A stretch of DNA of 64,000 nucleotides. It comes from Marmoricola sp. Leaf446 (GTDB lineage Bacteria > Actinomycetota > Actinomycetes > Propionibacteriales > Nocardioidaceae). The position numbers and the translations under genes are program-made. Position 1 is the stretch's first letter. The number at the start of each line of letters is the position of its first letter. Of the stretch, positions 15,704-47,273 are shown piece after piece. The notes under the pieces are model-generated. The model searched no databases and was not told the DNA's origin. It worked only from the letters and a program-made list of their open reading frames with translations. The stretch spans positions 1,042,903 through 1,106,902 of the forward strand of contig NZ_LMRF01000001.1 of NCBI RefSeq assembly GCF_001424755.1, read 5' to 3'.

Positions 15704-15710
15704 GGGCCCC

Positions 15711-15716
15711 ACCCTA
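15711..15716 (-). promoter_or_regulatory. Leaderless -10 box of galK (TAGGGT)
   Basis: TAGGGT on the minus strand stops seven bases before the galK GTG at 15703. It lies back to back with the cobalamin riboswitch of cobN on the plus strand. Confidence 0.5.
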
Positions 15717-15743
15717 GGAGGCGGCGCCAGCCGGCGGTGGCGT

Positions 15744-15890
15744 CCCTTAGGGTGGCCCCACGCGTCTCGTGGACCCAGGAACCCGGTGTGACTCCGGGGC
15801 GGTTCCGCCACTGTGAGGCCGACCCGACAAGAGTCGGGCGGTCCAGCCAGACACTGGCCACGGGACTTCCGACCACCGGGGCGAGAACCC
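15744..15890 (+). ncRNA. Cobalamin riboswitch controlling cobN
   Basis: The leader before cobN contains the cobalamin aptamer core: GGAACCCGGTGTGACTCCGG (15778-15797), then CGGTTCCGCCACTGTGA (the B12 box region), a GCCAGACA segment and a downstream CGGGACTTCCGACC. A strong ribosome site, GAGGAGG at 15892-15898, follows directly, so B12 binding could hide it and stop translation. Boundaries are approximate. Seen by pattern, without a covariance-model search. Confidence 0.85.
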
Positions 15891-15907
15891 CGAGGAGGAC
15901 CGTCCAC

Positions 15908-18900
15908 GTGACCTCTCCGCGCATCGCGCTGCTCTCCACCTCCGACACCGACCTGCTCTCCGCGCGGGCCTCGGGGGCCGACTACGTCTGGGCCAACCCC
16001 TCCCGGCCCGGCCACCAGTCGATGGCCGAGGTGATCGAGGGCGCCGACCTCGTCGTCGGGCGCATCCTCGGCTCGCCGACCGACCTGTGCTCGGGCTTCG
16101 CGCGCATCCGCGCCACCGGCATGCCGATGCTGGTGCTGGGCGGCGAGCAGCAGCCCAGCGCGGAGCTGATGGAGCTCTCCACCGTGCCGATGGGCGTGGC
16201 CGCCGAGGCCCACCGCTACCTCGCCGAGGGCGGCCCGGCGAACCTCGCCCAGCTCCACGCCTTCCTCTCCGACACCGTGCTGCTCACCGGCGAGGGCTTC
16301 GAGGCGCCCGCCGAGGTGGCGGCGTGGGGGGTCGCCGAGCGGGTCTCGACGGGCTCGACCGGCGAGGGCGCGCGCGACCTGCCGCGGGTCGGCATCCTCT
16401 ACTACCGGGCCCACGAGGTCTCGGGCAACACCGCGTTCGCGCACGCGCTGGCCGACGCGGTCGACGCGACCGGCCAGGCGGTCGGCGTGCCGATCTTCTC
16501 CTCCTCGCTGCGCACCGCCCCCGACGAGCTGTACGCCGCGCTCGGCAGCCTCGACGCCCTGGTCGTGACCGTGCTCGCGGCCGGCGGCAGCAAGCCCGCG
16601 ACCGCCAGCGCCGGCGGCGACGACGAGGCGTGGGACGTGGAGCGGATGGCCGCGCTCGACATCCCGATCCTGCAGGGCCTGTGCCTGACCAGCAGCCGCG
16701 CCGAGTGGGAGGCCAGCGACGACGGCGTCAGCCCGCTCGACTCCGCCACCCAGGTGGCGATCCCCGAGTTCGACGGCCGCATCATCACCGCGCCGTTCTC
16801 GTTCAAGGAGATCGACGAGGACGGCCTGCCGCGCTACGTCGCCGACCCCGAGCGGGCCGCCCGGGTGGCCGGCATCGCGGTCGCCCACGCCCGGCTGCGC
16901 CACGTCCCCGCGCCCGAGCGGAAGGTGGCGCTGATGCTGTCGGCGTACCCCACCAAGCACTCCCGCGTCGGCAACGCCGTCGGCCTCGACACCCCCGTCT
17001 CCACGATCCGGCTGCTGCGCCGGATGCGCGACGCGGGCTACGACCTCGGCGGCCCGGGGGCGATCCCGGGGCTCGACCTCGAGGACGACACCGAGGCCGG
17101 CGACGCGCTGATCCACGCGCTCATCGCGGCCGGCGGGCAGGACGAGGAGTGGCTGACCAACGCGCAGCTCACCGACGCCCACGTCCGCATCACGCCCGAG
17201 CAGTACGCCGCCTGGACCGCCGACCTCGACGCCGGCCTCAAGTCCGGCATGGTCGAGGCGTGGGGCCCCGCGCCGGGTCGGCTGTTCGTCAACGACGCCG
17301 GCGAGATCGTGCTGGCCACCATCACGGCCGGCAACGTGGTGCTGCTGATCCAGCCGCCGCGCGGGTTCGGCGAGAACCCCGTCGCGATCTACCACGACCC
17401 CGACCTGGCGCCCTCCCACCACTACCTCGCGGCCTACCGCTGGCTGGCGGCGCGCCCGGAGGCGGGCGGGTTCGGCGCCGACGCCGTGGTCCACCTCGGC
17501 AAGCACGGCTCGATGGAGTGGCTGCCCGGCAAGAACGCCGCGCTCTCGGCCGCCTGCGCCACCGACGCCGCGATCGGCAACCTGCCGCTGATCTACCCCT
17601 TCCTGGTCAACGACCCGGGGGAGGGCGCGCAGGCCAAGCGCCGCGCCCACGCCACCATCGTCGACCACCTGATCCCGCCGATGGCGCGCGCGGAGTCCTA
17701 CGGCGACATCGCGCGTCTCGAGCAGCTGCTCGACGAGCACGCCAACATCGCCGCGATGGACCCGGCCAAGCTGCCGGCCGTCCGCGGCGAGATCTGGCAG
17801 CTGATGCACGCCGCCGAGATGCACCGCGACCTCGGCCTGGACGAGCGGCCCGACGACGAGGAGTTCGACGACTTCATCCTCCACGTCGACGGCTGGCTGT
17901 GCGAGATCAAGGACGCCCAGATCCGCGACGGGCTGCACGTGCTCGGCCAGGCGCCCGAGGCCGGGGCCGAGGTCAACCTCGTGCTCGCGATGCTGCGGGC
18001 CTCGCAGGTCTTCGGCGGCGACTCCAAGGCGGTCCCGGGGCTGCGCTCCGCGCTCGGCCTCAAGGAGGGCGCCGAGGCGGTCACCGCCGTCGACGAGATC
18101 GAGGCCCAGGCGCGCGACCTGGTGCAGCGGCTCGCGGACGCCGACTGGTCGCCCGCGGCGGTGGCGGGGCTGCACGACGACCCGCTGGTCCAGGACGTGC
18201 TGTCCTTCGCCGCCACGCAGGTGGTGCCGCGGCTGCGGCGTACGACCGACGAGCTGGACGCCGTGCTGCACGCCCTCGACGGCGGCTTCGTCCACGCCGG
18301 GCCCTCGGGCTCGCCGCTGCGCGGGCTGGTCAACGTGCTGCCGACCGGCCGCAACTTCTACACCGTCGACCCGCGCGCGGTGCCCTCCAGGCTGGCCTGG
18401 GGCACCGGGCAGGCGATGGCCGAGTCGCTGGTGCAGCGCTACCTCGACGACACCGGCGGCTACCCCGAGTCGGTCGGCCTCTCGGTGTGGGGCACCAGCG
18501 CGATGCGCACCTCCGGTGACGACGTCGCCGAGGTGCTGGCCCTGCTCGGCGTACGCCCGGAGTGGGACGAGGCCTCGCGGCGCGTCAACGAGCTGCGCGT
18601 CGTGCCCCTCGACGAGCTCGGACGCCCCCGCATCGACGTGACGGTGCGGATCTCCGGCTTCTTCCGCGACGCCTTCCCGCACGTGGTGGCGATGCTCGAC
18701 GACGCGGTTCGGCTCGTGGCCGCCCTGGAGGAGCCGGCGGACCAGAACTTCGTGGCCGCCCACGCCCGCGCCGACCTCGCCGAGCACGGCGACCAGCGGC
18801 GCGCGACGACGCGGATCTTCGGCTCCAAGCCGGGGTCCTACGGCGCCGGCATCCTGCAGGTCGTCGAGAACGGCAGCTGGCGCGACGACCAGGACCTGGC

Positions 18901-19534
18901 CGAGGTCTACACGGCCTGGGGCGGGTTCGCCTACGGTCGCGACCTCGACGGGGCGGCGGCCGCCGACGACATGCGCACCAACTACCGGCGCATCAAGGTC
19001 GCGGCCAAGAACATCGACACCCGCGAGCACGACATCGCCGACTCCGACGACTACTTCCAGTACCACGGCGGCATGGTCGCCACCGTCCGCGCGCTCACCG
19101 GCAGCTCGCCCGAGGCCTACGTCGGCGACTCGACCACGCCCGACGCGGTGCGCACCCGCACCCTCCAGGAGGAGACCAACCGGGTCTTCCGGGCGCGCGT
19201 GGTCAACCCGCGCTGGATCGGCGCGATGCAGCGCCACGGCTACAAGGGCGCGTTCGAGCTCGCCGCCACGGTGGACTACCTGTTCGGCTTCGACGCCACC
19301 ACCGGCGTGGTCCACGACTGGATGTACGCCGCGCTGGCGCAGGAGTACGTCCTGGACGAGACCAACCAGGCGTTCATGAAGCAGTCGAACCCCTGGGCGC
19401 TGCGCGGCATCGTGGAGAAGCTCCACGAGGCCGTCGACCGCGGCCTGTGGGAGTCGCCCGACGCCGACCTGCTGGCGCAGATGCAGCAGGTCTACCTCGA
19501 CCTCGAGGGCGACCTGGAGGACCGGGAGTCGTGA
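15908..19534 (+). CDS. cobN: Cobaltochelatase large subunit CobN
   Basis: Large subunit of the ATP-dependent chelatase that inserts cobalt into hydrogenobyrinic acid a,c-diamide in the aerobic B12 pathway. It has 1208 residues, within the family range. The family motif GKHGSMEWLPGKNAALS is at about residues 530-547, and conserved segments such as VALMLSAYPTKHSRVGNAVG and GTSAMRTSGDDVAEVLALLG are present. Its AAA+/VWA partner is encoded at 39554-41686; no separate cobS/cobT chelatase genes are seen. The GTG start lies nine bases after GAGGAGG, behind a cobalamin riboswitch. A short dispersed repeat is read in frame as RVSTGSTGE near residue 146, in a linker between domains. Confidence 0.95.
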   Translation: MTSPRIALLSTSDTDLLSARASGADYVWANPSRPGHQSMAEVIEGADLVVGRILGSPTDLCSGFARIRATGMPMLVLGGEQQPSAELMELSTVPMGVAAEAHRYLAEGGPANLAQLHAFLSDTVLLTGEGFEAPAEVAAWGVAERVSTGSTGEGARDLPRVGILYYRAHEVSGNTAFAHALADAVDATGQAVGVPIFSSSLRTAPDELYAALGSLDALVVTVLAAGGSKPATASAGGDDEAWDVERMAALDIPILQGLCLTSSRAEWEASDDGVSPLDSATQVAIPEFDGRIITAPFSFKEIDEDGLPRYVADPERAARVAGIAVAHARLRHVPAPERKVALMLSAYPTKHSRVGNAVGLDTPVSTIRLLRRMRDAGYDLGGPGAIPGLDLEDDTEAGDALIHALIAAGGQDEEWLTNAQLTDAHVRITPEQYAAWTADLDAGLKSGMVEAWGPAPGRLFVNDAGEIVLATITAGNVVLLIQPPRGFGENPVAIYHDPDLAPSHHYLAAYRWLAARPEAGGFGADAVVHLGKHGSMEWLPGKNAALSAACATDAAIGNLPLIYPFLVNDPGEGAQAKRRAHATIVDHLIPPMARAESYGDIARLEQLLDEHANIAAMDPAKLPAVRGEIWQLMHAAEMHRDLGLDERPDDEEFDDFILHVDGWLCEIKDAQIRDGLHVLGQAPEAGAEVNLVLAMLRASQVFGGDSKAVPGLRSALGLKEGAEAVTAVDEIEAQARDLVQRLADADWSPAAVAGLHDDPLVQDVLSFAATQVVPRLRRTTDELDAVLHALDGGFVHAGPSGSPLRGLVNVLPTGRNFYTVDPRAVPSRLAWGTGQAMAESLVQRYLDDTGGYPESVGLSVWGTSAMRTSGDDVAEVLALLGVRPEWDEASRRVNELRVVPLDELGRPRIDVTVRISGFFRDAFPHVVAMLDDAVRLVAALEEPADQNFVAAHARADLAEHGDQRRATTRIFGSKPGSYGAGILQVVENGSWRDDQDLAEVYTAWGGFAYGRDLDGAAAADDMRTNYRRIKVAAKNIDTREHDIADSDDYFQYHGGMVATVRALTGSSPEAYVGDSTTPDAVRTRTLQEETNRVFRARVVNPRWIGAMQRHGYKGAFELAATVDYLFGFDATTGVVHDWMYAALAQEYVLDETNQAFMKQSNPWALRGIVEKLHEAVDRGLWESPDADLLAQMQQVYLDLEGDLEDRES
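16342..16360 (+). repeat. Dispersed 19-base repeat, copy 1 (inside cobN)
   Basis: GGTCTCGACGGGCTCGACC, part of a dispersed family; two further copies lie at 20343 and 20734. Here it is read in frame as VSTGST within cobN. Its halves, GGTCTCGAC and the inverted GGGCTCGACC, make an imperfect hairpin. Confidence 0.75.
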
Positions 19535-20385
19535 GTGCCACGGGGCGCTCCAGCGCCCTCTCACCCTCACGACCCGGCGCCGGTGGGGTGCGCCGGGTCC
19601 GGCTGATCGGGGTCGGGCCGGGCGACCCCGACCAGGTGACGCTCGAGGCGGTCCGGGCGATGCGCGAGGTCGACTTCTTCGTCGTCTCCGACAAGTCCGG
19701 GGCCGGCCACGACGACCCGCTGGTGGCGGCCCGCGAGCGGCTGCTCGAGCGTCACCTGGACGGCGCGGCGCGCGTGGTGCGCGTGGACGACCCGGTGCGC
19801 GAGCGCCGGCCCGACCGCACCGCCACCGACCAGGAGTACGCCGAGGTCGTGGCCTCCTGGCACGAGGCCCGCGCCGCCGCCTTCGAGCAGGCGCTGCTCG
19901 ACCACGAGGGCGACGCGGGGTTCTTGGTGTGGGGCGACCCGGCGTTCTACGACTCGACCATCCGGGTGCTGGAGCAGGTCCGCGACCGGGGGCGGGTGCC
20001 GCTGGCGATCGAGGTGGTGCCCGGGATCTCCAGCATCCAGCTGCTCGCCGCCCGGCACGCCATCGTGCTCCACGAGGTGGGCCAGCCGATGCACGTCACG
20101 ACCGGGCGCCGGCTCGCCGAGGCGGTCGCGTCGGGCCAGGACAACGTCGTGGTGATGCTCAACCGCTCGCTGGAGCTGGCCGGCCTCGACGACTGGTGGA
20201 TCTGGTGGGGCGCCGACCTCGGCACCCCGCACGAGGAGCTGGTGTCGGGCCGGGTCGGTGACGTCCGCGGCGAGATCGACGCCGCGCGGGAGCGGGCGCG
20301 TGAGGCGGCCGGCTGGGTGATGGACGTGTTCCTGCTGCGACGGGTGTCGACGGGCTCGACCGACGACCCGGAGGTGGCGCCGTGA
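19531..20385 (+). CDS. cobF: Precorrin-6A synthase (deacetylating) CobF
   Basis: SAM-dependent methyltransferase that methylates C1 of precorrin-5 with loss of acetate in aerobic B12 synthesis. It has 284 residues. The tetrapyrrole-methylase opening VRLIGVGPGDPDQVTLEAV is preceded by about 20 extra residues. The CobF-specific DFFVVSDKSG and VPGISSIQLLAARHAI are present. The GTG at 19531 overlaps the cobN stop (GTGA). The extra N-terminus is read through a dispersed repeat, and a GTG at 19588 could be the original start. The C-terminus also ends in a copy of the 19-base repeat (read as VSTGST). Confidence 0.92.
   Translation: MSATGRSSALSPSRPGAGGVRRVRLIGVGPGDPDQVTLEAVRAMREVDFFVVSDKSGAGHDDPLVAARERLLERHLDGAARVVRVDDPVRERRPDRTATDQEYAEVVASWHEARAAAFEQALLDHEGDAGFLVWGDPAFYDSTIRVLEQVRDRGRVPLAIEVVPGISSIQLLAARHAIVLHEVGQPMHVTTGRRLAEAVASGQDNVVVMLNRSLELAGLDDWWIWWGADLGTPHEELVSGRVGDVRGEIDAARERAREAAGWVMDVFLLRRVSTGSTDDPEVAP
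19543..19580 (-). repeat. Dispersed ~38-base repeat, copy 1 (5' end of cobF)
   Basis: Read on the minus strand this is GCGCCGGGTCGTGAGGGTGA followed by an AGGGCGCTGGAGCGCCC hairpin. A near-identical element lies at 29308 on the plus strand. Here it is read in frame in the N-terminal extension of CobF. Confidence 0.65.
20343..20361 (+). repeat. Dispersed 19-base repeat, copy 2 (3' end of cobF)
   Basis: GGTGTCGACGGGCTCGACC differs from the other copies by one base. It is read in frame as VSTGST, eight codons before the cobF stop. Confidence 0.75.
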
Positions 20386-20723
20386 CCCGGCCCGACCGCG
20401 ACGTGATGCTGTGCCGCGACTGCTGCTGCGGCACGGACAAGCACCCCCGCACCGACCACGACGGCCAGCGCGACGCGCTGCTGGCGATGGACGGCGTCGC
20501 CGGCGTCCGGGTGCGGGTGGTCGACTGCCTCGACCAGTGTGACCGCAGCAACGTGGTGCTGGTGCGTGACTTCACCGGCGGCCGGCGGCCGGTGGACACC
20601 TGGCTCGGCGGCGTGCTCGACCCGACGGCGACCGAGCGGGTGGTCGGCTGGGTCGGTGAGGGCGGCGAGCTGCCGCGCGAGCTGGAGCCGCACCGGTTCG
20701 GGCAGAACCGCCGGGGGCGGTGA
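20382..20723 (+). CDS. Small thioredoxin-like [2Fe-2S] ferredoxin-domain protein in the cobalamin operon
   Basis: Protein of 113 residues with cysteines at positions 11, 14, 15, 16, 49 and 53 ([13 protein letters not shown], then [16 protein letters not shown]). The late CX3C pair after a beta strand, and the length, fit thioredoxin-like [2Fe-2S] ferredoxins, although the first cysteine group is unusually dense. It overlaps cobF and cobQ by four bases each, so it is made together with B12 enzymes. A role in electron supply, for example to CobG, to cobalt reduction before adenosylation, or to BluB, is plausible but only inferred from position. Confidence 0.75.
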
Positions 20724-22264
20724 GGAGGGCCGTGGTCTCGACGGGCTCGACCGACGGGGGAGGGCCGTCCGGCGGGGGCCGCGCCGGGGCGCTGCTGGTC
20801 GCGGGCACGACCTCCGACGCCGGCAAGAGCGTCGTCACGACCGGGCTGTGCCGGGCGCTGGTGCGGCGGGGGCTGCGGGTGGCGCCGTTCAAGGCGCAGA
20901 ACATGTCCAACAACTCGATGGTCACCCGCGACGGCGCCGAGATCGGCCGGGCCCAGTGGGTGCAGGCGCTGGCCGCGCGGGCCGAGCCCGAGGCGGCGAT
21001 GAACCCCGTGCTGCTCAAGCCCGGAGGCGAGATGCGCAGCCACGTCGTGGTGATGGGCCAGCCGGCGGGCGAGGTGTCCTCGCGCGACTTCGTCGACGGT
21101 CGGCGCCACCTGGCGCGCGCGGCGTACGACGCCTTCGACGACCTGGCCTCGCGCTTCGAGGTCGTCGTCGCCGAGGGGGCGGGCAGCCCGGCGGAGATCA
21201 ACCTGCGGGCCAGCGACTACGTCAACCTGGGCCTGGCGCAGCACGCCGGGATGGCGGCCGTCGTGGTCGGCGACATCGACCGCGGGGGAGTCTTCGCGGC
21301 CATGCTCGGCACCGTCGCGCTGCTGGAGCCGGCCGACCAGCGACTGGTGTCGGGGTTCGTGGTCAACAAGTTCCGCGGCGACCGCAGCCTGCTCGAGCCC
21401 GGGCTGCGCCAGCTCGAGGAGCTGACCGGGCGCCCGGTGCACGGCGTGCTGCCGTGGGACCCCGACCTGTGGCTGGACTCCGAGGACGCGCTCGACCTCG
21501 AGGGGCGGCGGGCCGGGTCGGAGGCGGCTCTGAAGGTGGTGGTCGTGCGGCTGCCGCGGATCAGCAACTTCACCGACGTCGACGCCCTCGGGCTCGAGGT
21601 CGACCTCGACGTCGTCTTCGCCAGCGATCCCCGCGACGTCGCGGACGCCGACCTCGTGGTCTTGCCGGGCACCCGGGCGACGATCAGCGACCTGGCCTGG
21701 CTGCGCTCGCGCGGCCTGGACCGCGCGGTGCTCGCCCACGCGGCGGCGGGTCGACCGGTGCTCGGCATCTGCGGCGGGTTCCAGATGCTGGGGCGCACCG
21801 TCGCCGACCCGACCGGGGTCGAGGGCACCGCGGGTGCGTCGGTCGAGGGGCTGGGCCTGCTCGACGTGCGCACCGACTTCGCGGCCGACAAGGTGCTGCG
21901 CCTGCCCGCGGGGTCGGCCCTGGGGGCGTCCACGCAGGGCTACGAGATCCACCACGGCCGGATCACCCGCGGCGCGGCCGAGGAGTTCCTGGGCGGGGCG
22001 CGGGAGGGCGCGGTGTTCGGCACGATGTGGCACGGCAGCCTGGAGGGCGACGCGTTCCGGCAGGCGTTCCTCGGCGAGGTGGCGCGGGCGCTGGGCGGTG
22101 CGCGAGCCCCGTCGACGGTCAGCTTCCCGGCCAGCCGGGAGCGGCGGCTCGACCTGCTCGGCGACCTGGTCGAGGAGCACCTCGACGTCGGCGCGCTGCT
22201 GGCGCTGGCGCTCGACGGCCCGCCGGCGGGGCTGCGGCTGCTCGAGCCGGGGGCGTCGCGGTGA
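20720..22264 (+). CDS. cobQ: Cobyric acid synthase CobQ
   Basis: Glutamine-dependent amidotransferase that amidates four side chains (b, d, e, g) of adenosylcobyrinic acid a,c-diamide. It has 514 residues. The P-loop-like [15 protein letters not shown] and [14 protein letters not shown] mark the synthetase half. The glutaminase half has the nucleophile in [12 protein letters not shown] (Cys about 351) and YEIHHGRI. The GTG start overlaps the ferredoxin gene stop. The first 20 residues ([11 protein letters not shown] and a glycine-rich stretch) are not part of the usual domain and are read from a dispersed repeat. Confidence 0.95.
20734..20752 (+). repeat. Dispersed 19-base repeat, copy 3 (5' end of cobQ)
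   Basis: GGTCTCGACGGGCTCGACC, identical to the cobN copy. It starts 14 bases after the cobQ start and is read in frame as VSTGST. Confidence 0.75.
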
Positions 22265-23004
22265 GCGTGCTGCTGCTCGGGGGCACCGGCGAGGCCCGCG
22301 CGCTGGCGGCGGCCCTCGTCGACGCGGACGTCGCGGTGCTGTCGTCGTTGGCGGGGCGCGTCGTACGGCCTCGGCTGCCGGTGGGGGAGGTGCGGATCGG
22401 CGGGTTCGGGGGGACCGCCGGCCTGGTCGCGCACCTGCGCGCCACCGCGCCGACGGTCGTGGTCGACGCGACCCACCCCTTCGCGGCCACCATCTCCGAA
22501 CACGCGGCGCAGGCCTGCGCCGAGGTCGGGGTGCCGCTGCTGCGGCTGGCCCGGCCCGGCTGGGAGCCGACGCCCGGCTGGCACCTGGTCGGCTCCCACG
22601 ACGAGGCGGCCCGGGTGACGGCGTCGCTGGGGAGGCGGCCGTTCCTGACCGTGGGGCGGCAGTCGCTGGGGTCGTTCACCGGCCCGCTGGGGTCGGCGGC
22701 GGCCCTGGTGCGGGTGGTCGACGAGCCGTCGGTGGCGCTCCCGGAGACGTGGACGCTGCTGCGCGACCGCGGTCCCTACGAGCTCGACGGCGAGCTGGCG
22801 CTGCTGCGCTCCCACGCCGCCGACGTGCTGGTCACCAAGGACTCGGGCGGGTCGCACACCCACCCCAAGCTCGACGCCGCGGCCCGGCTGGGCGTTCCCG
22901 TGGTCGTCGTACGCCGTCCGCCGCCGCCCCCGGGCGTCACGTCCGTCGCAGCGGTGGACGAGGCTGTGGCCTGGGTGCTGTCGACGTCAGGGGTCCGCTC
23001 GTGA
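22261..23004 (+). CDS. cobK: Precorrin-6A reductase CobK
   Basis: NADPH-dependent reductase that converts precorrin-6A to precorrin-6B (dihydro form) in the corrin ring pathway. It has 247 residues, as expected. CobK/CbiJ landmarks are the N-terminal [30 protein letters not shown], and the C-terminal [22 protein letters not shown] start overlapping the cobQ stop by four bases. Confidence 0.93.
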
Positions 23005-38943: not shown

Positions 38944-39554
38944 CACTCGATGCCCTTCTGGCCCTTCTGGCCGCGGTCCATCTGGTGCTTGACCTTGGTC
39001 ATCTCCGTCACCAGGTCGGCGACCTCGACGAGGCGGGGGTGGGCGCGGCGGCCGGTGACGACGACGTACTGCCGCCCCGGCCGGTTCGCGAGCGACTCCA
39101 CGACGTCGTCGACGTCGACCCAGCCCCACTCCATGGGGTAGGTGAACTCGTCGAGCACGAGCAGGTCGTGGGTCTCCTCGGCGAGCCGGCGCTTGACCTC
39201 GGCCCAGCCCTCGGCGGCCTCGACGGCGTGGTCGGTCTCGGAGCCCTCCTTGCGCGACCAGGACCAGCCGGCGCCCATCTTGTGCCACTCCACGGGCCCG
39301 CCCTCGCCGGTCTCCCGGTGCAGCTCGCCGAGCCGCTCGAGCACGGTCTGCTCGCCGATGCGCCACTTGGCCGACTTCACGAACTGGAACACCCCGACGT
39401 CCCACCCCTGGTTCCAGGCGCGGATGGCGAGGCCGAAGGCGGCGGTCGACTTCCCCTTGCCGTCGCCGGTGTGCACCATCAGCAGCGGCTGCTGGCGGCG
39501 CTCGCGCGTGGACAGCCCGTCGTCGGGCACGGTCAGCGGCTTGCCCTGCGGCAT
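38940..39554 (-). CDS. cobO: Cob(I)yrinic acid a,c-diamide adenosyltransferase CobO
   Basis: Transfers the 5'-deoxyadenosyl group from ATP to Co(I) corrinoids; BtuR/CobO/CobP type. It has 204 residues. The P-loop is MVHTGDGKGKSTAAFGLAIR, followed by WNQGWDVGVFQFVKSAKWRI and the DLLVLDEFTYPMEWGWV Walker B region, then YVVVTGRRAHPRLVEVADLV. ATG start at 39554 overlapping the chelatase stop (TGATG). The protein that reduces cobalt to Co(I) is not evident here. Confidence 0.95.
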   Translation of the reverse strand: MPQGKPLTVPDDGLSTRERRQQPLLMVHTGDGKGKSTAAFGLAIRAWNQGWDVGVFQFVKSAKWRIGEQTVLERLGELHRETGEGGPVEWHKMGAGWSWSRKEGSETDHAVEAAEGWAEVKRRLAEETHDLLVLDEFTYPMEWGWVDVDDVVESLANRPGRQYVVVTGRRAHPRLVEVADLVTEMTKVKHQMDRGQKGQKGIEW

Positions 39555-41686
39555 CAGGCGGCTCCTTCGTCGGTGGGGGTGTGGGCGGGGCGGGCGCGGT
39601 GGACCAGCGCCGTCAGCCCGTCCGCGCTGACCTCGGCGACGGGCACGTGTTCGGCGCGCAGGTGCTCGGCCAGCACCCCGGCGAGGCCGAGCCGCATCGC
39701 CCCGCTCTCGCAGTCCACGACGAGCGCGTCCACGCCGTCGGCGGCGAGGTGGGCCGCGACCCGGCGGGACCGGGCGACGGCGTCGGCGCCGGAGGTGGCC
39801 CGGCCGTCGGTGACGACCACGAGCAACGGGCGGCGACGGGGGTCGCGCACCTTCTCCAGGCGCAGCACGCGGGCGGCCTCGAGCAGGCCCTCGGCGAGCG
39901 GCGTGCGGCCGCCGGCCGGCAGGTCCTGGAGCCGGGTGGCGGCGATGTCGACCGACCGGGTGGGCGGCAGCGCGAGGTCGGCGCCGTGGCCGCGGAACGT
40001 GACCAGGCCGACCTTGTCGCGACGGCGGTAGGCGTCGAGCAGCAGCGAGAGGATCGCGGTCTTGACCTGCTCCATCCGGCGGCGTGCAGCCATCGAGCCG
40101 GACGCGTCGACGCAGAACAGCACCAGGTTGGACTCCTGGCCCTCCCGGGTGGCGACGCGCAGGTCGTCGCCGCGGAACAGCAGCCGGCCCGTCGTACGGC
40201 CGCGGAGGACCTGGTGCGGTGCCGCCGCCCGGACGGTCTCGGCGAGGTGGAGGGAGCCCGCGCCGTCGGAGCCGCCGAGGCTGCGCCGCGATCCCGTACG
40301 TCGACCCGACTCGGTCACCGCCCGGCTGCGCTTGCCGGCCTCGCCGGCGCCCGTGCCGCGAACGGTGAACAGCCGGGTGCGGTAGGGCTCGCTCGCCGCG
40401 TGCACGGTGCCGGGGGGTTGCTGGTCGCCCGGTGCGTCGTGCGCGCCCGCCGGCGGGGGCATCGCCTCGGAGGAGGCGTCACCCGCCTCGGGGGCGGGAC
40501 CGTCCTGCTGCTGCGGGACGTCATCGAGATCGTGGTCTCCAGGCCCCGCTGGTGATGACGTCCCGGGCGGAGGAGCGTCGGTGGGGGCGTCCGTCCCGTC
40601 GCCGGCGTCGTCGGTCCCCTCGGTGGGGCCCTGGGGCTGCGGGTCCTCCGGCGGCTCCGGGGGCTCCGGGTCGGGCTCGTCGTCGCCGAGGATCCGGTCG
40701 AGCAGGTCCTCGTCGAGGCCGGGGGCGTCGAAGGGGTTGCGGCGGCGGCGGTGGGGCAGCGCCAGCCGGGCGGCCGCGCGGATGTCCTGGACCAGCACCC
40801 GGCGACGGCCGTACCAGGCGGCGTGGGCCACGGCGGTGCGGGCGGTGACGATGTCGGCGCGCATGCCGTCGACCTCGAAGGCGGCGCACACCTCGGCGAT
40901 CTTGAGCAGCGCCCCGTCGCCGAGCACGACGGCGGCGACCTGCTCCTGCGCGGCGCGGATGCGCTCGGTCAGCGCCCGCTCGTCCTCGTCGTAGGCCGCG
41001 GCGAACGCGTCGGGGTCGGCGTCGAAGGCCAGCCGGCGGCGTACGACCTCGACGCGGAGCGCCGGGTCGCGCGGTGCCGCGACCTCCACGGTCAGCCCGA
41101 ACCGGTCGAGCAGCTGCGGGCGCAGCTCGCCCTCCTCGGGGTTCATGGTGCCGACGAGCACGAACCGGGCGGCGTGCTCGACCGAGACGCCGTCGCGCTC
41201 CACCGTCGAGCGGCCCATGGCGGCGGCGTCGAGCAGCAGGTCGACGAGGTGGTCGTGGAGCAGGTTGACCTCGTCGACGTAGAGGATCCCGCGGTGGGCG
41301 CGGGCGAGCAGGCCGGGCTCGTACTCCGCCCTGCCCTCCGACAGCGCGCGCTCGAGGTGCAGCGAGCCGAGCACGCGGTCCTCGGTGGCGCCGACCGGCA
41401 GCTCGACGAGGCGGACCGGCCGCGACTCGACGGGCGCGTCGGCGGCGAACGGCCCGTCGGGCGAGAGCGGCGCGCGGTCGCGCGGGTCGGTGGAGAACCG
41501 GTCGCCGGCGACGACGTCGATGGCGGGCAGCACCGAGGCGAGCGCGCGCACGATCGTCGACTTGGCGGTGCCCTTCTCGCCGCGGACCAGCACCCCGCCG
41601 ACGTCGGGCGAGATGGTGGTGAGGACGAGGGCGAGCGCCATGTCGTCGGACCCGACGACGGCGCTGAAGGGGAACTGCTGTGGCAC
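39554..41686 (-). CDS. ChlI/ChlD-type cobaltochelatase subunit (AAA+ and VWA)
   Basis: ATPase partner of CobN, 710 residues. The N-terminal AAA+ domain has Walker A RGEKGTAKST (residues 36-44), Walker B ILYVDEVNLL (134 onward) and an arginine-finger region. A long acidic, proline-rich linker (about 320-430, for example EPDPEPPEPPEDPQPQ) leads to a C-terminal VWA domain with an intact MIDAS motif DASGS (about 527). This single protein matches a fused BchI/BchD layout and replaces CobS/CobT of Pseudomonas. As no chlorophyll genes are present and it lies among B12 genes, cobalt is the expected metal. ATG start, with a riboswitch upstream. Confidence 0.93.
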   Translation of the reverse strand: MPQQFPFSAVVGSDDMALALVLTTISPDVGGVLVRGEKGTAKSTIVRALASVLPAIDVVAGDRFSTDPRDRAPLSPDGPFAADAPVESRPVRLVELPVGATEDRVLGSLHLERALSEGRAEYEPGLLARAHRGILYVDEVNLLHDHLVDLLLDAAAMGRSTVERDGVSVEHAARFVLVGTMNPEEGELRPQLLDRFGLTVEVAAPRDPALRVEVVRRRLAFDADPDAFAAAYDEDERALTERIRAAQEQVAAVVLGDGALLKIAEVCAAFEVDGMRADIVTARTAVAHAAWYGRRRVLVQDIRAAARLALPHRRRRNPFDAPGLDEDLLDRILGDDEPDPEPPEPPEDPQPQGPTEGTDDAGDGTDAPTDAPPPGTSSPAGPGDHDLDDVPQQQDGPAPEAGDASSEAMPPPAGAHDAPGDQQPPGTVHAASEPYRTRLFTVRGTGAGEAGKRSRAVTESGRRTGSRRSLGGSDGAGSLHLAETVRAAAPHQVLRGRTTGRLLFRGDDLRVATREGQESNLVLFCVDASGSMAARRRMEQVKTAILSLLLDAYRRRDKVGLVTFRGHGADLALPPTRSVDIAATRLQDLPAGGRTPLAEGLLEAARVLRLEKVRDPRRRPLLVVVTDGRATSGADAVARSRRVAAHLAADGVDALVVDCESGAMRLGLAGVLAEHLRAEHVPVAEVSADGLTALVHRARPAHTPTDEGAA

Positions 41687-41711
41687 GGAGGCTCCCGCTC
41701 GTGGCCAGAGG

Positions 41712-41880
41712 AAAAAGTGGCGCGAGGCCGGTCTTCGGACTTCCCGGGTCCACGTCTCGCGACGCGTCCCGGGTCACCGCAGCGGGCCTGTGCCGGAGTC
41801 TCACCGGCTTCCCAGATTCTCCCGTCGGGACGCGGTGGGGCTGGGTCGTGCTGCGTCCGTCGGGGCACCTCGTGCCTGTC
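41712..41880 (-). ncRNA. Cobalamin riboswitch controlling the chelatase-cobO-cobBC operon
   Basis: On the minus strand the leader contains GGGAAGCCGGTGAGACTCCG, then GCACAGGCCCGCTGCGGTGA and a later GTCCGAAGACCGGCC, matching the cobalamin aptamer core. A run of five T (41716-41712) follows the aptamer directly, which could help transcription to stop. The element fills the gap between divergent operons, but only the leftward one carries the aptamer in sense. Boundaries approximate. Confidence 0.83.
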
Positions 41881-41905: not shown

Positions 41906-43162
41906 GTGACCTCCGGAGCCCGACCGCGCGTGACGGCCGTCGGCCTCGGCGCGGACGGCTGGGACGGCCTCCCCGAGCGGCTGCGCGAGGTGGTCGCCTC
42001 GGCCCCGGTCGTGCTCGGCGGGCAGCGCCACCTCGACCTGCTGCCGCCCGTGGCCGGCCAGGTCCGCGAGCCCTGGCCCTCGCCGCTGCGCGACGGCCTG
42101 CCCGCGCTGCTGGCGCGCCACTCCGGCGCGGTCGTCGCGCTGGCCTCGGGCGACCCGCTGGTCTCCGGCATCGGCAGCACCCTGGTCGACCTGCTCGGCG
42201 CCGACGCGGTGCGCGTCGAGCCGGCGGTCTCCTCGGTCGCGCTGGCGCGCGCCCGGCTGGGCTGGTCGGCGGAGGCGAGCGAGGTCCTCACGCTGGTCGG
42301 CCGCGACCCCCACCTGCTGCTCCGGGCGCTCGCCCCGGGCCGCCGGCTGCTGGTGCTGTCCTCCGACGAGCACACGCCGGAGGCGGTGGCCGCGCTGCTG
42401 GTCGGGCAGGGGTACGCCGCGTCGCGCGTCGTCGTGCTGGGCGACCTCGGCGGCCCCGAGGAGTCGCGGCGCGAGGGCACGGCCGGCGCCTGGTCGGGAC
42501 CCTCGCCCCGGCTGCACGTGCTGGCCCTGGAGCTCGCCGGGCCGGTGGTCGGGTCGTGGGCCGCCGGGCTGCCCGACGCGGCGTACGAGCACGACGGGCA
42601 GCTGACCAAGCGCGACCTCAGGGCCTCGGCCCTGGCCCGGCTCGCGCCGCAGCCCGGGCAGCTGCTCTGGGACGTCGGCGCCGGCGCCGGGTCGGTCGGG
42701 ATCGAGTGGGCGCGTGCCCACCCGACCTGCCGCACCGTGGCCGTCGAGGCCCACCCCGAGCGGGCCGCCCGGGTGGCGCGCAACGCGGCCGCGCTCGGCG
42801 TCCCGGGCGTGGTCGTGGTCGAGGGCCGCGCGCCCGACGCGCTGGCCGGCCTGGAGGCCCCGGACGCGGTCTTCGTCGGCGGGGGAGCGACCCGACCCGG
42901 CGTCCTGGAGGCCTGCCTCGAGGCGCTGCGCCCGGGAGGCCGTCTCGTCGTCCACGGCGTCACGCTGGAGACCGAGACCCTGCTGGCCACGGCGTACGCC
43001 GCCCACGGCGGCGAGCTGACCCGTCACGCCGTCGAGACGGCCGCGCCGATCGGCGGCTTCACCGGCTGGACCCCCGCCCGCGCCGTGGTGCAGTGGGCCC
43101 ACGTGAAGCCGTCCGAGCCCGACCCCGTTCCGTCCTCCGAGCCTGTCGAGGAGACCCCGTGA
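41906..43162 (+). CDS. cobL: Precorrin-6B C5,15-methyltransferase (decarboxylating) CobL
   Basis: Two-domain enzyme of 418 residues that methylates C5 and C15 and removes the C12 acetate carboxyl, giving precorrin-8X. The N-terminal half (1 to about 200) is a CbiE-type tetrapyrrole methylase starting VTAVGLGADGWDGLPERLRE, with VVLGGQRHLDLL. The C-terminal half is a CbiT-type methyltransferase with DGQLTKRDLRASALARLAPQ and LLWDVGAGAGSVGIEWARAH. GTG start at 41906 behind a leaderless promoter. The cobM start overlaps its stop by four bases. Confidence 0.94.
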   Translation: MTSGARPRVTAVGLGADGWDGLPERLREVVASAPVVLGGQRHLDLLPPVAGQVREPWPSPLRDGLPALLARHSGAVVALASGDPLVSGIGSTLVDLLGADAVRVEPAVSSVALARARLGWSAEASEVLTLVGRDPHLLLRALAPGRRLLVLSSDEHTPEAVAALLVGQGYAASRVVVLGDLGGPEESRREGTAGAWSGPSPRLHVLALELAGPVVGSWAAGLPDAAYEHDGQLTKRDLRASALARLAPQPGQLLWDVGAGAGSVGIEWARAHPTCRTVAVEAHPERAARVARNAAALGVPGVVVVEGRAPDALAGLEAPDAVFVGGGATRPGVLEACLEALRPGGRLVVHGVTLETETLLATAYAAHGGELTRHAVETAAPIGGFTGWTPARAVVQWAHVKPSEPDPVPSSEPVEETP

Positions 43163-43914
43163 CCGTCCACTTCGTCGGCGCCGGACCGGGCGCCGCCGAC
43201 CTGATCACGCTGCGCGCCGCCACGATGCTGGCCGCCGCCGACGTGGTGCTCTACCCCGGCACCTACCTCGACGCCGAGGTGCTCGGCCACGCCCGCCCGG
43301 ACGCCCGGCTGGTCGACACCCAGGACCTCGACCTCGACCAGATCACCGTCGAGCTGGTCGCCGCCGACGCCGCCGGGCTCGACGTGGTGCGGCTGGTCTC
43401 GGGCGACCCGTCGCTCTACTCCGCCGTCGCCGAGCAGGCGCGCCGGCTCGACGCCGCCGGGGTCGGCTGGGACGTCACCCCCGGCGTCCCGGCGTACGCC
43501 GCCGCGGCCGCCGCCGTGGGCCGCGAGCTCACGGTCCCGCTGGTCGCCCAGTCGGTCGTGCTGACCCGCGCGCAGGCCCGCTCCACGGCGATGCCGGAGA
43601 CCGAGGCGCTGGGACGCTTCGCCGCGACCCGGGCGACGCTGGCGCTGCACCTCGCGATCACGCGGACGCGGGAGCTGATGACCGAGCTGCAGGGCGAGTA
43701 CGGCGCCGACTGCCCCGTCGTCGTCGTCCACCGCGCCAGCCAGCCCGAGGAGCAGGTGCTGCGCGGCACCGTCGCCGACATCGCCGACCAGGTCGAGGCG
43801 GCCGGGCTGAGGCAGGCCGCCGTCGTGCTGGTCGGTCGCGCGCTGGACCCGTCGGGCGGGGGCGAGTCGTTCCTCTACGACCCGGCCCGCGACCGGAGCA
43901 GCAAGCGGCGCTAG
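43159..43914 (+). CDS. cobM: Precorrin-4 C11-methyltransferase CobM
   Basis: SAM-dependent methylase that converts precorrin-4 to precorrin-5. It has 251 residues, the normal length. The P-loop-like N-terminus VTVHFVGAGPGAADLITLRA is followed by the CobM signature ADVVLYPGTYLDAEVL, VRLVSGDPSLYSAVAEQ and VTPGVPAYAAAAAAVGRELT. The C-terminal CPVVVVHRASQPEEQVLRGT is typical. The GTG overlaps the cobL stop. It meets the convergent cobIJ gene with only four bases between stops, so there is no room for a separate terminator. Confidence 0.94.
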   Translation: MTVHFVGAGPGAADLITLRAATMLAAADVVLYPGTYLDAEVLGHARPDARLVDTQDLDLDQITVELVAADAAGLDVVRLVSGDPSLYSAVAEQARRLDAAGVGWDVTPGVPAYAAAAAAVGRELTVPLVAQSVVLTRAQARSTAMPETEALGRFAATRATLALHLAITRTRELMTELQGEYGADCPVVVVHRASQPEEQVLRGTVADIADQVEAAGLRQAAVVLVGRALDPSGGGESFLYDPARDRSSKRR

Positions 43915-43918
43915 CCGG

Positions 43919-45472
43919 TCAGGACGGCGTCGAGCGCGCGGTCCACACCGCGCCGGAGGCCGAGCGGCGGGTGCCGGTGCAGCCGACGACGAGCAGGCAC
44001 TTCATGTCGACCGCACCCGCGTCGAGGTCGGCCAGCGTGGTCACCGTCAGCGACTCCTCGGCGCGGCCGACGTCGCGACCGACCACCACCACGGTGTCGG
44101 CGGGCCGGTGCTCGAGCAGGATCTTCTGGGCCTCGACGACCTGGTCGGTGCGCGAGCGGGAGGCGGGGTTGTAGATCGCGAGCACCAGGTCGGCGTCGGC
44201 CACGGCCCGCAGCCGCCGCTCGATCAGCGACCAGGGCTTGAGCCGGTCCGAGAGGCTCATCACCGCGAAGTCGCCGCCGATCGGCGCGCCCGCCCTCGCC
44301 GCCACGGCCTGCACGGCGCTGACGCCCGGCAGCACCCGCACCGCGACCCCGTCGTACGCCGGGTCCTCGGCCGCCTCGTAGACCGCCGCCGCCATCCCGA
44401 ACACGCCCGCGTCGCCGCCCGAGACGACCGCGACCCGCTCGCCGGCCAGCGCGAGGTCGAGCGCCAGCCGCGACCGGTCGAGCTCGACGGTGTTGCCCGA
44501 CGCGTGCCGGGTCAGCCCGGCGCGCTGCGGGACCCGGTTGACGTAGGGCGCGTAGCCCACGACGTGGTCGACGCCCGCCAGCGCCTCGGTCACCTCGGGG
44601 GTCACCCAGCGGTCCGGACCCGGGCCGAGCCCGACGACCAGCACCTCGCCGGCCGGTCGGTCGGTCGGTCGACCGGTCGCGCCCGGGGTCGTGGCCAGCA
44701 CGGGCGGACGCCGCCCCGCCGGGTCGGCCGCGGCGCTGTCGCCGGCGACCACGATCAGCGAGAAGTAGGGCACCGTCCCGGGGTCGACGTCGGCCACCGG
44801 CAGCCACCGCTCGGCGGGCATCGAGGCGCGCTCGACGTAGACCGCGTGCTCCAGCCGGCCGGCCTGCGCCAGGGCCGAGCGCACGGCGGGGAAGGTGCGG
44901 CCGAGCTTCATGATGATGGCGCCGTCGGTGTCGGCCAGGCGACGTGCGAGCTCGGCCTCGGGCAGCGTGCCGGGCAGGATCGTCAGCACGTCGGTCTGCC
45001 GCACCAGCGGCGCGGCGACCGAGGCGGTGGCCGCGGCGAACGCGGGCACGCCCGGCACCACCTCGGTGGGAAATCGGTCGGCCAGCCGGTCGTGCATGTA
45101 CATGTAGGACCCGTAGAACAGCGGGTCGCCCTCGGCCAGCAGCACCACGGTGCGGCCCGCCTCCAGGTGGGCGGCCAGCCGGGCGGCGGAGTCCTCGTAG
45201 AAGGCGGCGATCGCCCCGGCGTACCCGCCCGGGTGGTCGGTGGCGCCGGTCGTCACCGGGTAGCGCAGCTCCTCCTCGACGACGCCGTCGGGGATGAGGT
45301 CGGCGGCGATGCGGCGCGCGTTGGACTGCTTGCCGACGCCCGCGTGGTAGGCCACGACGTCGGCCGCGCCGATCAGCCGGGCGGCCTTGAGGGTGACCAG
45401 CTCGGGGTCGCCGGGGCCCAGGCCGACGCCGTAGAAGCGCCCGAGGGGCCGGCTGGTCGTCTCGGTGCTCAC
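43919..45472 (-). CDS. cobIJ: Fused precorrin-2 C20-methyltransferase (CobI) and precorrin-3B C17-methyltransferase (CobJ)
   Basis: Fusion of 517 residues that adds methyl groups at C20 and, after ring oxidation, C17. Residues 1 to about 245 are CobI: RFYGVGLGPGDPELVTLKAA, AEGDPLFYGSYMYMHDRL and VVPGVPAFAAATASVAAPLV. A linker of about 30 residues (threonine- and arginine-rich) leads to CobJ from about 275: VLVVGLGPGPDRWVTPEVTE, GYAPYVNRVP, VSGGDAGVFGMAAAVYEA and VLAIYNPASRSRTDQVVEAQ. CobI-CobJ fusions are known in actinobacteria. GTG start overlapping the cobH stop. Confidence 0.94.
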   Translation of the reverse strand: MSTETTSRPLGRFYGVGLGPGDPELVTLKAARLIGAADVVAYHAGVGKQSNARRIAADLIPDGVVEEELRYPVTTGATDHPGGYAGAIAAFYEDSAARLAAHLEAGRTVVLLAEGDPLFYGSYMYMHDRLADRFPTEVVPGVPAFAAATASVAAPLVRQTDVLTILPGTLPEAELARRLADTDGAIIMKLGRTFPAVRSALAQAGRLEHAVYVERASMPAERWLPVADVDPGTVPYFSLIVVAGDSAAADPAGRRPPVLATTPGATGRPTDRPAGEVLVVGLGPGPDRWVTPEVTEALAGVDHVVGYAPYVNRVPQRAGLTRHASGNTVELDRSRLALDLALAGERVAVVSGGDAGVFGMAAAVYEAAEDPAYDGVAVRVLPGVSAVQAVAARAGAPIGGDFAVMSLSDRLKPWSLIERRLRAVADADLVLAIYNPASRSRTDQVVEAQKILLEHRPADTVVVVGRDVGRAEESLTVTTLADLDAGAVDMKCLLVVGCTGTRRSASGAVWTARSTPS

Positions 45473-46134
45473 TCCGCCTCCTGGGCCAGCGCGTTGATCG
45501 CCGAGGCGGTCATGGCCGAGCCGCCGCGGCGGCCGCGGACGGTCAGGAACGGCACGTCGATGCCGTGGTCGGCGGCCAACGAGGCCAGCGCGTCCTTGGA
45601 CTCCGCTGCCCCGATGAACCCCACCGGGCAGCCCACGATCGCGGCCGGTCGGGGGGCGCCGTCGATGAGCATCTCGAGCAGGTGGAACAGCGCGGTGGGG
45701 GCGTTGCCGATGGCCACGACGGCGCCCTCGAGGTGCGGCTCCCACAGCGAGACCGCCGCCGCGGAGCGGGTGGTGCCCCAGTCGCGGGCCAGGCTCGGCA
45801 CGGCCGGGTCGCGCAGCAGGCACACCACGTCGTTGTCCTTCGGCAGCCGGGCGCGGGTGACGCCCGAGGCGACCATGTGGGCGTCGGCGAGCACCGGTGC
45901 GCCGGCCTCGAGCGCGGCCCGGGCGGCGGGCACGAGGTCGGGGTGGAAGACGAGGTCGTGGACGAGGTCGGTCTGGCCGGTGCCGTGCACCATCCGCACC
46001 GCCACGGTCGGGGCGCCGTCGGGCAGGCCGTCCAGCGCGGTCTCGCGGCGGATGGTGGCGAAGGAGTCGACGTAGATGGCGGGGCCGGAGTCGACGTACT
46101 CGTAGCGGCGCGGGGGGCGCTTCAGCACGCTCAT
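45469..46134 (-). CDS. cobH: Precorrin-8X methylmutase CobH
   Basis: Moves the methyl group from C11 to C12 of precorrin-8X to make hydrogenobyrinic acid. It has 221 residues. The catalytic histidine is in VAVRMVHGTGQTDLVHDLVF. Other family markers are GAPVLADAHMVASGVTRARL, AVVAIGNAPTALFHLLEML and AAIVGCPVGFIGAAESKDAL. The ATG start at 46134 overlaps the cobG stop (ATGA). It feeds its product to CobB. Confidence 0.95.
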   Translation of the reverse strand: MSVLKRPPRRYEYVDSGPAIYVDSFATIRRETALDGLPDGAPTVAVRMVHGTGQTDLVHDLVFHPDLVPAARAALEAGAPVLADAHMVASGVTRARLPKDNDVVCLLRDPAVPSLARDWGTTRSAAAVSLWEPHLEGAVVAIGNAPTALFHLLEMLIDGAPRPAAIVGCPVGFIGAAESKDALASLAADHGIDVPFLTVRGRRGGSAMTASAINALAQEAE

Positions 46135-47006
46135 GCGGCGACCCCCGGTGAGGTCGGGGCGGGCACGACGACGCCGTGCCACGGCGTCACGACCAGCTCG
46201 CGGCCCGGCGCGACCAGCCGGTCGACCAGGCCACGGTCGAGGACGCCGTCGGGGACGGCGACGTGGTCGCCACCGGCCTGGGGCCCGTACGCCGCCCGCG
46301 CACCCGCCGCGGGCACCCGCGGGTCGCGCTGTGTCGCGGCGAGCAGCGGGGCGTCGAGCTCCTCGACGTGCCACGGGGCGGTCCGCCCGGACCCGCGGGT
46401 CGCCAGGAAGCGCGACGCCAGGTCGGCCAGCCGCCGCGGCGCCTCGTCGAGCGCGACCACGGGCCCCCAGGCGTCGCCGACGCGCAGCTGGCCGTCGTGC
46501 TCGTCGAGCGCCACGAGCCCGAGGTCGGTGCCGCGGTCGACCAGGTCGCCGCGGCCGTCGTCGAGCACCTGCAGGAAGCGGCCCGGCAGGTCGGCCAGGG
46601 CCGCGTCGGCGCGGAGCAGCGCGTCGAGCTCGTCGGCCACGGGCCGCAGGTCGGCCCGGCCGCCCGCCAGCCCGCTGAACGGCGAGACCATCACGTTGCG
46701 ACCGAGCTCGTGGGTGCGCGAGGGCAGCAGGCCGGTCGCCTCGACCGCGGCCACGACCTCGTCGGGCAGGGCGCCGCCGGCGGGGTCGGCCCAGGGGAGG
46801 GCGCGCAGCTGCAGGTTGGCCCGGCCGGTGAGGTGCAGCCGGCCGTCGCCGTACGTCCGGGCGACCTCGGCCAGCCCGGCCAACGACGCGGCGGGGACAC
46901 GTCCCCCGACCAGCCGGACCCGGACCAGGGCGCCGTCGTCGGCCGACCACGGGCGCAGCACGCCGGGGCACAGGTCGCGCCGGGAGCGGGTGGAGGTGGG
47001 GGTCAC
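46131..47006 (-). CDS. cobG: CobG-like precorrin-3B synthase lacking Fe-S ligand cysteines
   Basis: Protein of 291 residues with the nitrite/sulfite reductase ferredoxin-like half-domains: RDLCPGVLRPWSADDGALVR, GDGRLHLTGRANLQLRALPW and AAVEATGLLPSRTHELGRNV. These match CobG, which oxidises precorrin-3A and contracts the ring precursor with O2. The Pseudomonas enzyme is longer and carries a 4Fe-4S cluster; here only one cysteine (in RDLCPG) is present, so that cluster cannot form. A short CobG may be usual in actinobacteria. The GTG at 47006 lies behind a cobalamin riboswitch. The stop overlaps cobH. Confidence 0.85.
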   Translation of the reverse strand: MTPTSTRSRRDLCPGVLRPWSADDGALVRVRLVGGRVPAASLAGLAEVARTYGDGRLHLTGRANLQLRALPWADPAGGALPDEVVAAVEATGLLPSRTHELGRNVMVSPFSGLAGGRADLRPVADELDALLRADAALADLPGRFLQVLDDGRGDLVDRGTDLGLVALDEHDGQLRVGDAWGPVVALDEAPRRLADLASRFLATRGSGRTAPWHVEELDAPLLAATQRDPRVPAAGARAAYGPQAGGDHVAVPDGVLDRGLVDRLVAPGRELVVTPWHGVVVPAPTSPGVAA

Positions 47007-47081
47007 CGGGTGGTCCTCGGGGGTCAGGGGCCCGTGCGCGTGGCCCTGCAACGACCCCGCGGCTGTTGCCGCGGAGGCCAG

Positions 47082-47230
47082 CAGGTCTTCGGACTCGGGT
47101 TCCACCGGGGAGGAGCGCCTTCCCGGACGACCTCGTCCAGTGGCTGTCGTGAGACCTGCTCCGCCCGTCACCCACACCGCTGCGCGTCAGTCCCGGACTC
47201 TCACCGGGTTCCCTCGACTGGCACGCGCAC
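47082..47230 (-). ncRNA. Cobalamin riboswitch controlling cobG-cobH-cobIJ
   Basis: On the minus strand the leader reads GGGAACCCGGTGAGAGTCCG, then GGACTGACGCGCAGCGGTGT and later GAGTCCGAAGACCTGCTGGC, matching the cobalamin aptamer. About 75 bases separate it from the cobG GTG. That stretch contains a strong short hairpin, CGCGGCAACAGCCGCG, near 47060-47075, which might belong to the expression platform. Boundaries approximate. Confidence 0.83.
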
Positions 47231-47273
47231 GCTACCAACCGTTCGCCGTTCCCGGCACCCGCCGTGCCCGGCC

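Follow-up and report, generated by a model that had tools for sequence, protein, structure and literature searches.

The window, the whole 64-kb stretch of Marmoricola sp. Leaf446 DNA analysed here, carries a set of B12 genes that, judged by profile matches, would encode the late-cobalt, oxygen-dependent pathway (Table 1), in which CobG is the oxygen-using step. A cobS-like gene also lies within the window, cobF and cobK were located through genome searches, and some of its B12 genes score just or well under the curated cut-offs. Three cobalamin riboswitches are present, and the GTG start of cobG is located 56 bases after the last of them. The BluB half of the BluB–CobT-like fusion corresponds to a DMB synthase, while the small Cys-rich protein encoded between cobF and cobQ gives no significant Pfam match (best DUF1636, E 0.054). 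Elsewhere in the window, an FAD monooxygenase-like gene (29381–30610) adjoins a gene for an Arr-type rifampin ADP-ribosyltransferase (30643–31056, over cut-off).

Table 1 B12-related features of the 64-kb window
Feature	Position	Strand	Evidence or remark
cobN, cobaltochelatase (late cobalt insertion)	15641..19534	+	True start likely after riboswitch 15743-15876
Cobalamin riboswitch at the start of cobN	15743..15876	+	
cobF, aerobic-pathway precorrin-6A synthase	19591..20343	+	256.9 bits, over cut-off
Small Cys-rich protein between cobF and cobQ	20382..20723	+	CobG partner proposed in the sequence-only reading
cobQ	20720..22264	+	Profile match
cobK, precorrin-6A reductase	22264..23004	+	168.9 bits, over cut-off; start inferred
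ChlI/ChlD-type cobaltochelatase subunit	39554..41686	-	TIGR02442, 757.1 bits, just under cut-off 779.45
Cobalamin riboswitch before the chelatase gene	41709..41850	-	
cobL, CbiE and CbiT domains	41930..43162	+	Both over cut-off; start inferred
cobM	43159..43914	+	254.1 bits, just under cut-off 259.65; start inferred
cobIJ fusion, precorrin-2 C20- and precorrin-3B C17-methyltransferase	43919..45469	-	Both halves over cut-off
cobH, precorrin-8X methylmutase	45469..46134	-	NF006136, 317.6 bits, over cut-off
Short CobG, 291 aa, GTG start	46131..47006	-	Translation, Pfam, TIGR02435 profile
Cobalamin riboswitch upstream of cobG	47063..47237	-	RF00174, 84.5 bits
BluB fused to CobT-like half, 589 aa	47264..49033	+	BluB over cut-off, CobT-like half under cut-off

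The CobG of the window contains a single cysteine, C13 within RDLCPG, and stops before the expected start of the [4Fe-4S] domain. Pfam detects NIR_SIR_ferr alone (residues 25–71). The CobG profile TIGR02435 aligns over model positions 1–217 of 388 only; its score of 122 bits stays below the cut-off of 234.8, and a whole-model match over the cut-off is not obtained. The [4Fe-4S] cysteine motif is absent from the sequence, as is the complete fold with cluster motif of an assimilatory sulfite or nitrite reductase, and the NCBIfam NirA, nitrite reductase and sulfite reductase models score far below their cut-offs. These results bear out the sequence-only reading, which had described a CobG with one cysteine and no sulfite-reductase-type cysteine domain. 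For this phylum the TIGR02435 cut-off is demanding: the genome G185, of the same family, encodes a full-length CobG that likewise falls under it (193.8 bits), and none of the 197 genomes in a family-wide search passes it, G185 included.

A frame error concealing a Cys-rich C-terminus, one of two findings that would have overturned the earlier description, was looked for and rejected. The TGA of cobG (46133–46131) overlaps the ATG of cobH, so that no room is left for a hidden domain. Furthermore, the protein ends 15 residues after the T-P-W motif, and a similar end soon after T-P-W recurs across the genus, in all 18 of the 24 genomes (Leaf446 among them) that have a strong match; these 18 were read. 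The other such finding, a second CobG or a CobZ in the same genome, did not turn up either. This genome has two further TIGR02435 matches, neither over the cut-off: one in a frame of 862 aa, the other in a frame of 627 aa whose length and coverage mark it as of sulfite/nitrite-reductase type. Its best match to CobZ (TIGR02485) reaches an E value of only 4e-4, with none over the cut-off.

An AF2 model computed from an alignment of nine short forms (mean pLDDT 83, poor at residues 8–24, where C13 and the tryptophan W20 discussed below are situated) predicts a sulfite/nitrite reductase fold. It superimposes on Mycobacterium tuberculosis NirA (1zj8) with a Z score of 22.2 and 4.1 Å over 279 residues, covering residues 21–390 of the 546-residue chain, and on sulfite reductase 2gep over residues 81–406. 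In E. coli sulfite reductase the cluster cysteines presumably lie beyond residue 430, so that the modelled protein would end before them. NirA and the assimilatory sulfite reductase hemoprotein appear to share the fold of the retained part but differ from the short CobG in possessing the cluster domain, and a gene of this kind is present separately in the genome of Leaf446.

The sequence-only reading had proposed aligning the actinobacterial CobGs and mapping their cysteines, and had surmised that the short form is widespread in actinobacteria rather than peculiar to this strain. We read 132 distinct short and 48 distinct full-length actinobacterial CobGs (a 157-aa second fragment in L215 was left out before residues were counted). 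All 132 short forms, distributed over many genera, lack the cluster motif, whereas the 48 full-length forms carry it with its four cysteines, by construction, since this group was set by its Cys pattern. The short form is thus widespread, as surmised, but not universal. Within the genus, the 18 short CobGs contain one to four cysteines each; of the other genomes, G021 has weak matches only and five have no match. In a sample of the order, CobG matches were found in 149 of 293 genomes, and 86 of these were assigned to the short type by score, with part read as DNA (80 from the same family and six from a second family). The assignment comprises 84 genomes at 224 bits or more, one of them matched only over residues 3–206, and two partial matches of high identity. 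By comparison, G185 carries a full-length CobG instead of the short one.

In the genus of G569, from the mycobacterial group, 138 of 148 genomes give a match; nine are of the short type by score and reading, and most matches belong to the full-length score class, of which a few were read. One of the nine short-type genomes, G784, has in addition to its short CobG a match that scores in the full-length class (C1:549195–550061 and C1:4985935–4986750; the short one was read). Among the best 80 of 281 named relatives, the carriers include Nocardioides, Marmoricola, Mycolicibacter (nine named species or strain designations), Nocardiopsis, Dietzia, Gordonia, Aestuariimicrobium, Kribbia, Marihabitans and others. 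The cluster motif occurs in none of these 80, and cobH is located nearby on the same strand in all of them.

Despite the loss of the domain, the short form keeps the conserved residues of full-length CobG. Thirty-five columns are near-invariant in both the 132 short (at least 97%) and the 48 full-length sequences (at least 90%), among them D11, C13, D24, R29, R31, T60, R62, N64, Q66, R68, H99, R103, D149, D154, D161, W212 and the T-P-W motif, and 34 of the 35 are also invariant in three sequences of a second truncated group, from family f16. An older count with 69 truncated rows (three of them from the second group) and 45 full-length rows gave the same picture. C13 is the sole cysteine fixed across the 132 short forms. 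Full-length CobGs continue after T-P-W with a domain containing AC-x-G-x-P-GC and GC-x-R-x-CG, and the part lost from the short form is the one with this cluster motif.

In addition to the shared columns, the short form has fixed residues of its own. Position 20 is tryptophan in 132/132 short forms and 3/3 sequences of the second truncated group but in 0/48 full-length forms, which have His (39), Phe (6) or Tyr (3); this is the only one of the 291 columns that is fixed in the short forms, agrees in the second group and is absent from the full forms, a pattern spotted after the fact and built on two losses. A fourth f16 sequence, complete and devoid of the cluster motif, and a fifth, partial one, cut by a contig end, also have Trp at this position. 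The other residues fixed only in the short form, Q173, R175, H213 and H248, are not consistently shared by the second group. H213 and H248 each occur in all 132 short forms, compared with 12 and 1 of the 48 full forms, respectively, and their positions in the second group are occupied by Arg and by Val or Thr.

In a tree built on the region common to all forms (114 rows: 66 short, 45 full-length and three of the second group; unrooted, no outgroup), the short form is placed among full-length CobGs. The 66 short rows form one clade (SH-aLRT 100), which is grouped with 12 full-length rows at a support of 99, and the 33 remaining full forms fall on the opposite side. The three truncated CobGs of family f16 sit among these 33. 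Tested on 62 of the 114 rows with residues 1–25 omitted, a single clade of all truncated forms is worse by 61 log units (AU p = 0.003). Because the f16 group is separate from the short clade, the C-terminal domain was probably lost at least twice in actinobacterial CobG, the second time apparently independently, in another family. The cobH and cobIJ genes beside short cobG each form a single clade with the same split as CobG, and the nearby cobM and cobL form nearly single clades, with two changes each. Since these neighbours follow the clade of the short cobG, their trees point to transfer of the genes as a block across distant genera. The cobIJ of the second truncated group, by comparison, falls outside the short-type cobIJ clade.

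To place the short form in its pathway, 57 genomes picked to span the groups (32 with short, 22 with full-length and three with second-group CobG) were searched. CobK is found in all 57. CobF passes its cut-off in 29 of the 32 short, 16 of the 22 full and all three second-group genomes, and the remaining three short genomes have nearly full-length CobF matches of 189.5–194.1 bits, against a cut-off of 195.8. The anaerobic-type protein CbiD is limited to two of the short genomes (G315 and G330), six of the full and none of the second-group genomes. Among the 22 full-CobG genomes, CobF over the cut-off (16) and CbiD (the other six) are mutually exclusive. In the genome of Leaf446, CobG stands together with cobH, cobIJ, CobF and CobN and with no CbiD, a context that was also examined in the relatives.

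Possible substitutes for the missing domain were also sought. No full-length CobG occurs in the 32 short-CobG genomes. A cluster-domain profile (A2), made from an alignment of eight CobG cluster domains, finds a CobG-type cluster domain in all 22 full genomes (best match at least 95.5 bits) and no separate one in the 32 short or three second-group genomes, where its matches reach at most 39.1 bits and lie in frames of at least 576 aa, taken by their length as sulfite or nitrite reductases; a cluster domain encoded elsewhere in the short genomes was thus rejected. CobZ as an alternative enzyme was rejected as well, with no match over the cut-off in the 57 genomes, which extends to whole genomes, that of Leaf446 included, the earlier observation that the window has no CobZ-like protein. 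Three near-full-length matches to the CobZ N-terminal model fall below its cut-off of 372.55, in the short-CobG genomes G541 (C1:3376978–3378426, 274 bits) and G023 (C1:990136–991587, 273 bits) and in the full-CobG genome G549 (C37:300298–301749, 262 bits). Since CobK and CobF are present, CbiD is mostly absent and no substitute was found, the short CobG appears to be the only precorrin-3B synthase candidate of a known kind in these genomes.

Taken together, the short CobG is probably a precorrin-3B synthase that works without the cluster. CobG hydroxylates C20 and forms the lactone using O2 (PMC7242693). Our comparison suggests that the cluster, thought to drive the C20 hydroxylation, can be done without, because the short form, despite the loss of the domain, retains the remaining conserved residues and still occupies the same step of the pathway. 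The [4Fe-4S] cluster of CobG is generally regarded as belonging to the catalytic machinery; adding one oxygen atom from O2 needs two electrons, which the cluster of the classical enzyme is believed to deliver. With the cluster domain gone, the short enzyme would need electrons from elsewhere or a reduced oxygen species.

We propose that the short CobG is a sulfite-reductase fold whose C-terminal part, with the [4Fe-4S] cluster, has been lost, and that precorrin-3A would bind in the pocket equivalent to the siroheme site of sulfite reductase. The retained pocket residues would be those of D-x-C-P-G, D-G, T-x-R-x-N-x-Q-x-R, P-x3-H-x3-R-N, D-D-G-x-G-D and T-P-W, and C20 of precorrin-3A would be presented to O2. 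Oxygen may be activated by a mononuclear iron or by the electron-rich substrate itself; the title of Schroeder 2009 reportedly names a mononuclear non-heme iron of CobG. W20, replacing His, Phe or Tyr, may close or stack over the face opened by the domain loss. The two electrons would come from an unspecific donor in place of the built-in cluster. A more specific version, which we put forward tentatively and regard as rather doubtful in its entirety, is a cluster-free hydroxylation of precorrin-3A in which either a mononuclear iron held by the newly fixed H213 and H248 and the shared H99, or no metal at all, activates O2. The classical cluster would then have served as an accessory store of electrons, given up on two or more occasions and in every case together with a change of His, Phe or Tyr to W20. 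Against the histidine-held iron stands the second truncated group, with its Arg and Val/Thr in place of H213 and H248.

The sequence-only reading had left two alternatives, a short form working without the cluster and another protein supplying the oxidative step, and the former is now the better supported. For the latter, the short CobG would be only the substrate-binding part, with cluster and electrons supplied in trans by a separate redox protein, either a ferredoxin or the half of a sulfite/nitrite reductase that carries the cluster. The canonical enzyme does have a cluster, and many short genomes hold frames of sulfite/nitrite-reductase type, judged by length and profile coverage. However, the cluster-domain profile has no match of any kind in eight of the 32 short genomes, although distant reductases may escape it. 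The 20382–20723 protein, named as the helper, was rejected as a general electron partner; in a one-sequence search, from which distant relatives may escape, it has relatives in 11 of the 32 short genomes, leaving 21 without a match, and in six of the 22 full genomes and none of the second group. Nor did a comparison of the neighbourhoods find, within about 7.5 kb, a partner gene that short loci share and full loci lack (101 short and 33 full loci; rough GC3 gene calling, 60 largest clusters, some of the short loci sharing genomes). The largest short-only cluster comprises 32 of the 101 short loci but is situated at a distance that 32 of the 33 full loci do not cover, only one full locus extending beyond 8.5 kb, and it is antisense to a long frame in the one member inspected; the other short-only clusters comprise at most 14 loci each. 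A partner in trans is unlikely.

We consider it somewhat less probable still that CobG is a decaying relic, with precorrin-3A oxidised otherwise (spontaneously, by CobIJ or by another enzyme) or with no B12 made. A whole domain is gone, and the constraint on CobG looks looser than that on CobH, since dN/dS is higher in the same four pairs (0.32, 0.45, 0.47 and 0.57 for CobG versus 0.10, 0.33, 0.28 and 0.35 for CobH, with a GC3 of about 0.93 depressing synonymous change in the comparison). The short-type cobIJ is moreover a separate clade with fixed residues of its own, and since short-type cobG, cobH and cobIJ were inherited together, some of the credit could belong to an altered CobIJ. Decay is nevertheless hard to reconcile with the near-invariant columns maintained over 132 sequences, with retention across many genera in a pattern pointing to horizontal transfer, and with the riboswitch ahead of the window cobG. 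An in-frame CobG–CobH fusion of about 500 aa, found in five of the best 80 of 281 loci, all from Nocardioides, speaks against it as well (L152, L159, L161, L163 with the CobG start near 9986, and L192 with that start at 8824; in L163, CbiC follows the half domain). A takeover by CobIJ in particular is at odds with the second truncated group, given the position of its cobIJ outside the short-type clade. A cobalt-dependent, anaerobic-like step that requires no oxygenase would fit the CbiD of G315 and G330 but is very improbable, as CbiD is absent from the other 30 short genomes, all 32 contain CobF once the three matches close to the cut-off are included, and CobN as well as a gene for a late chelatase is encoded in the window.

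With the classical CobG (TIGR02435, Pseudomonas denitrificans type, EC 1.14.13.83), the short form shares the N-terminal ferredoxin-like half domain and its motifs, the operon with cobH and cobIJ, and the aerobic pathway context. It differs in lacking the C-terminal CxGxPGC...GCxRxCG domain, in scoring below the family cut-off, in having W20 for His, Phe or Tyr, and in the fixed Q173, R175, H213 and H248. Full-length actinobacterial CobGs (for example L096 from the same family, L093 and L125) belong to the same family by tree and motifs, but have four cluster cysteines and measure 364–498 aa among part of those read. CobZ of Rhodobacter capsulatus, which reportedly contains flavin, heme and Fe-S, carries out the same reaction; it is described as quite distinct from CobG (PMC7242693). 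Among the open-licence matches listed (titles and abstract openings), no paper on a cluster-free CobG was found, and the short CobG appears to be new as a variant of the known enzyme.

Whether short-CobG organisms make B12 is addressed suggestively by a survey in which non-tuberculous mycobacteria contained B12 by ELISA, the lowest value being 3.7 ng/mg for M. innocens (PMC8192938). Its strain table lists M. terrae JCM 12143, whose Mycolicibacter relatives carry the short form. The case is suggestive only, because the link passes through these relatives and the culture medium, which contained OADC, was not B12-free by design (PMC8192938). The gene table gives no cobG for M. terrae, and the authors call the annotation incomplete, with other genes blank too (PMC8192938).

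A natural, widely shared form without the cluster domain would offer a minimal enzyme for finding what activates oxygen, and a smaller, cluster-free oxygenase may be convenient for engineered B12 pathways. For annotation, reliance on the TIGR02435 cut-off would mean that CobG is recorded as missing from many genomes whose pathway is otherwise aerobic. Variation at the conserved cysteine is seen among the full-length enzymes: L091 and L092 each have two full-length CobG genes in tandem, and the second copy reads DRSPG, with the near-invariant C13 replaced by Ser.
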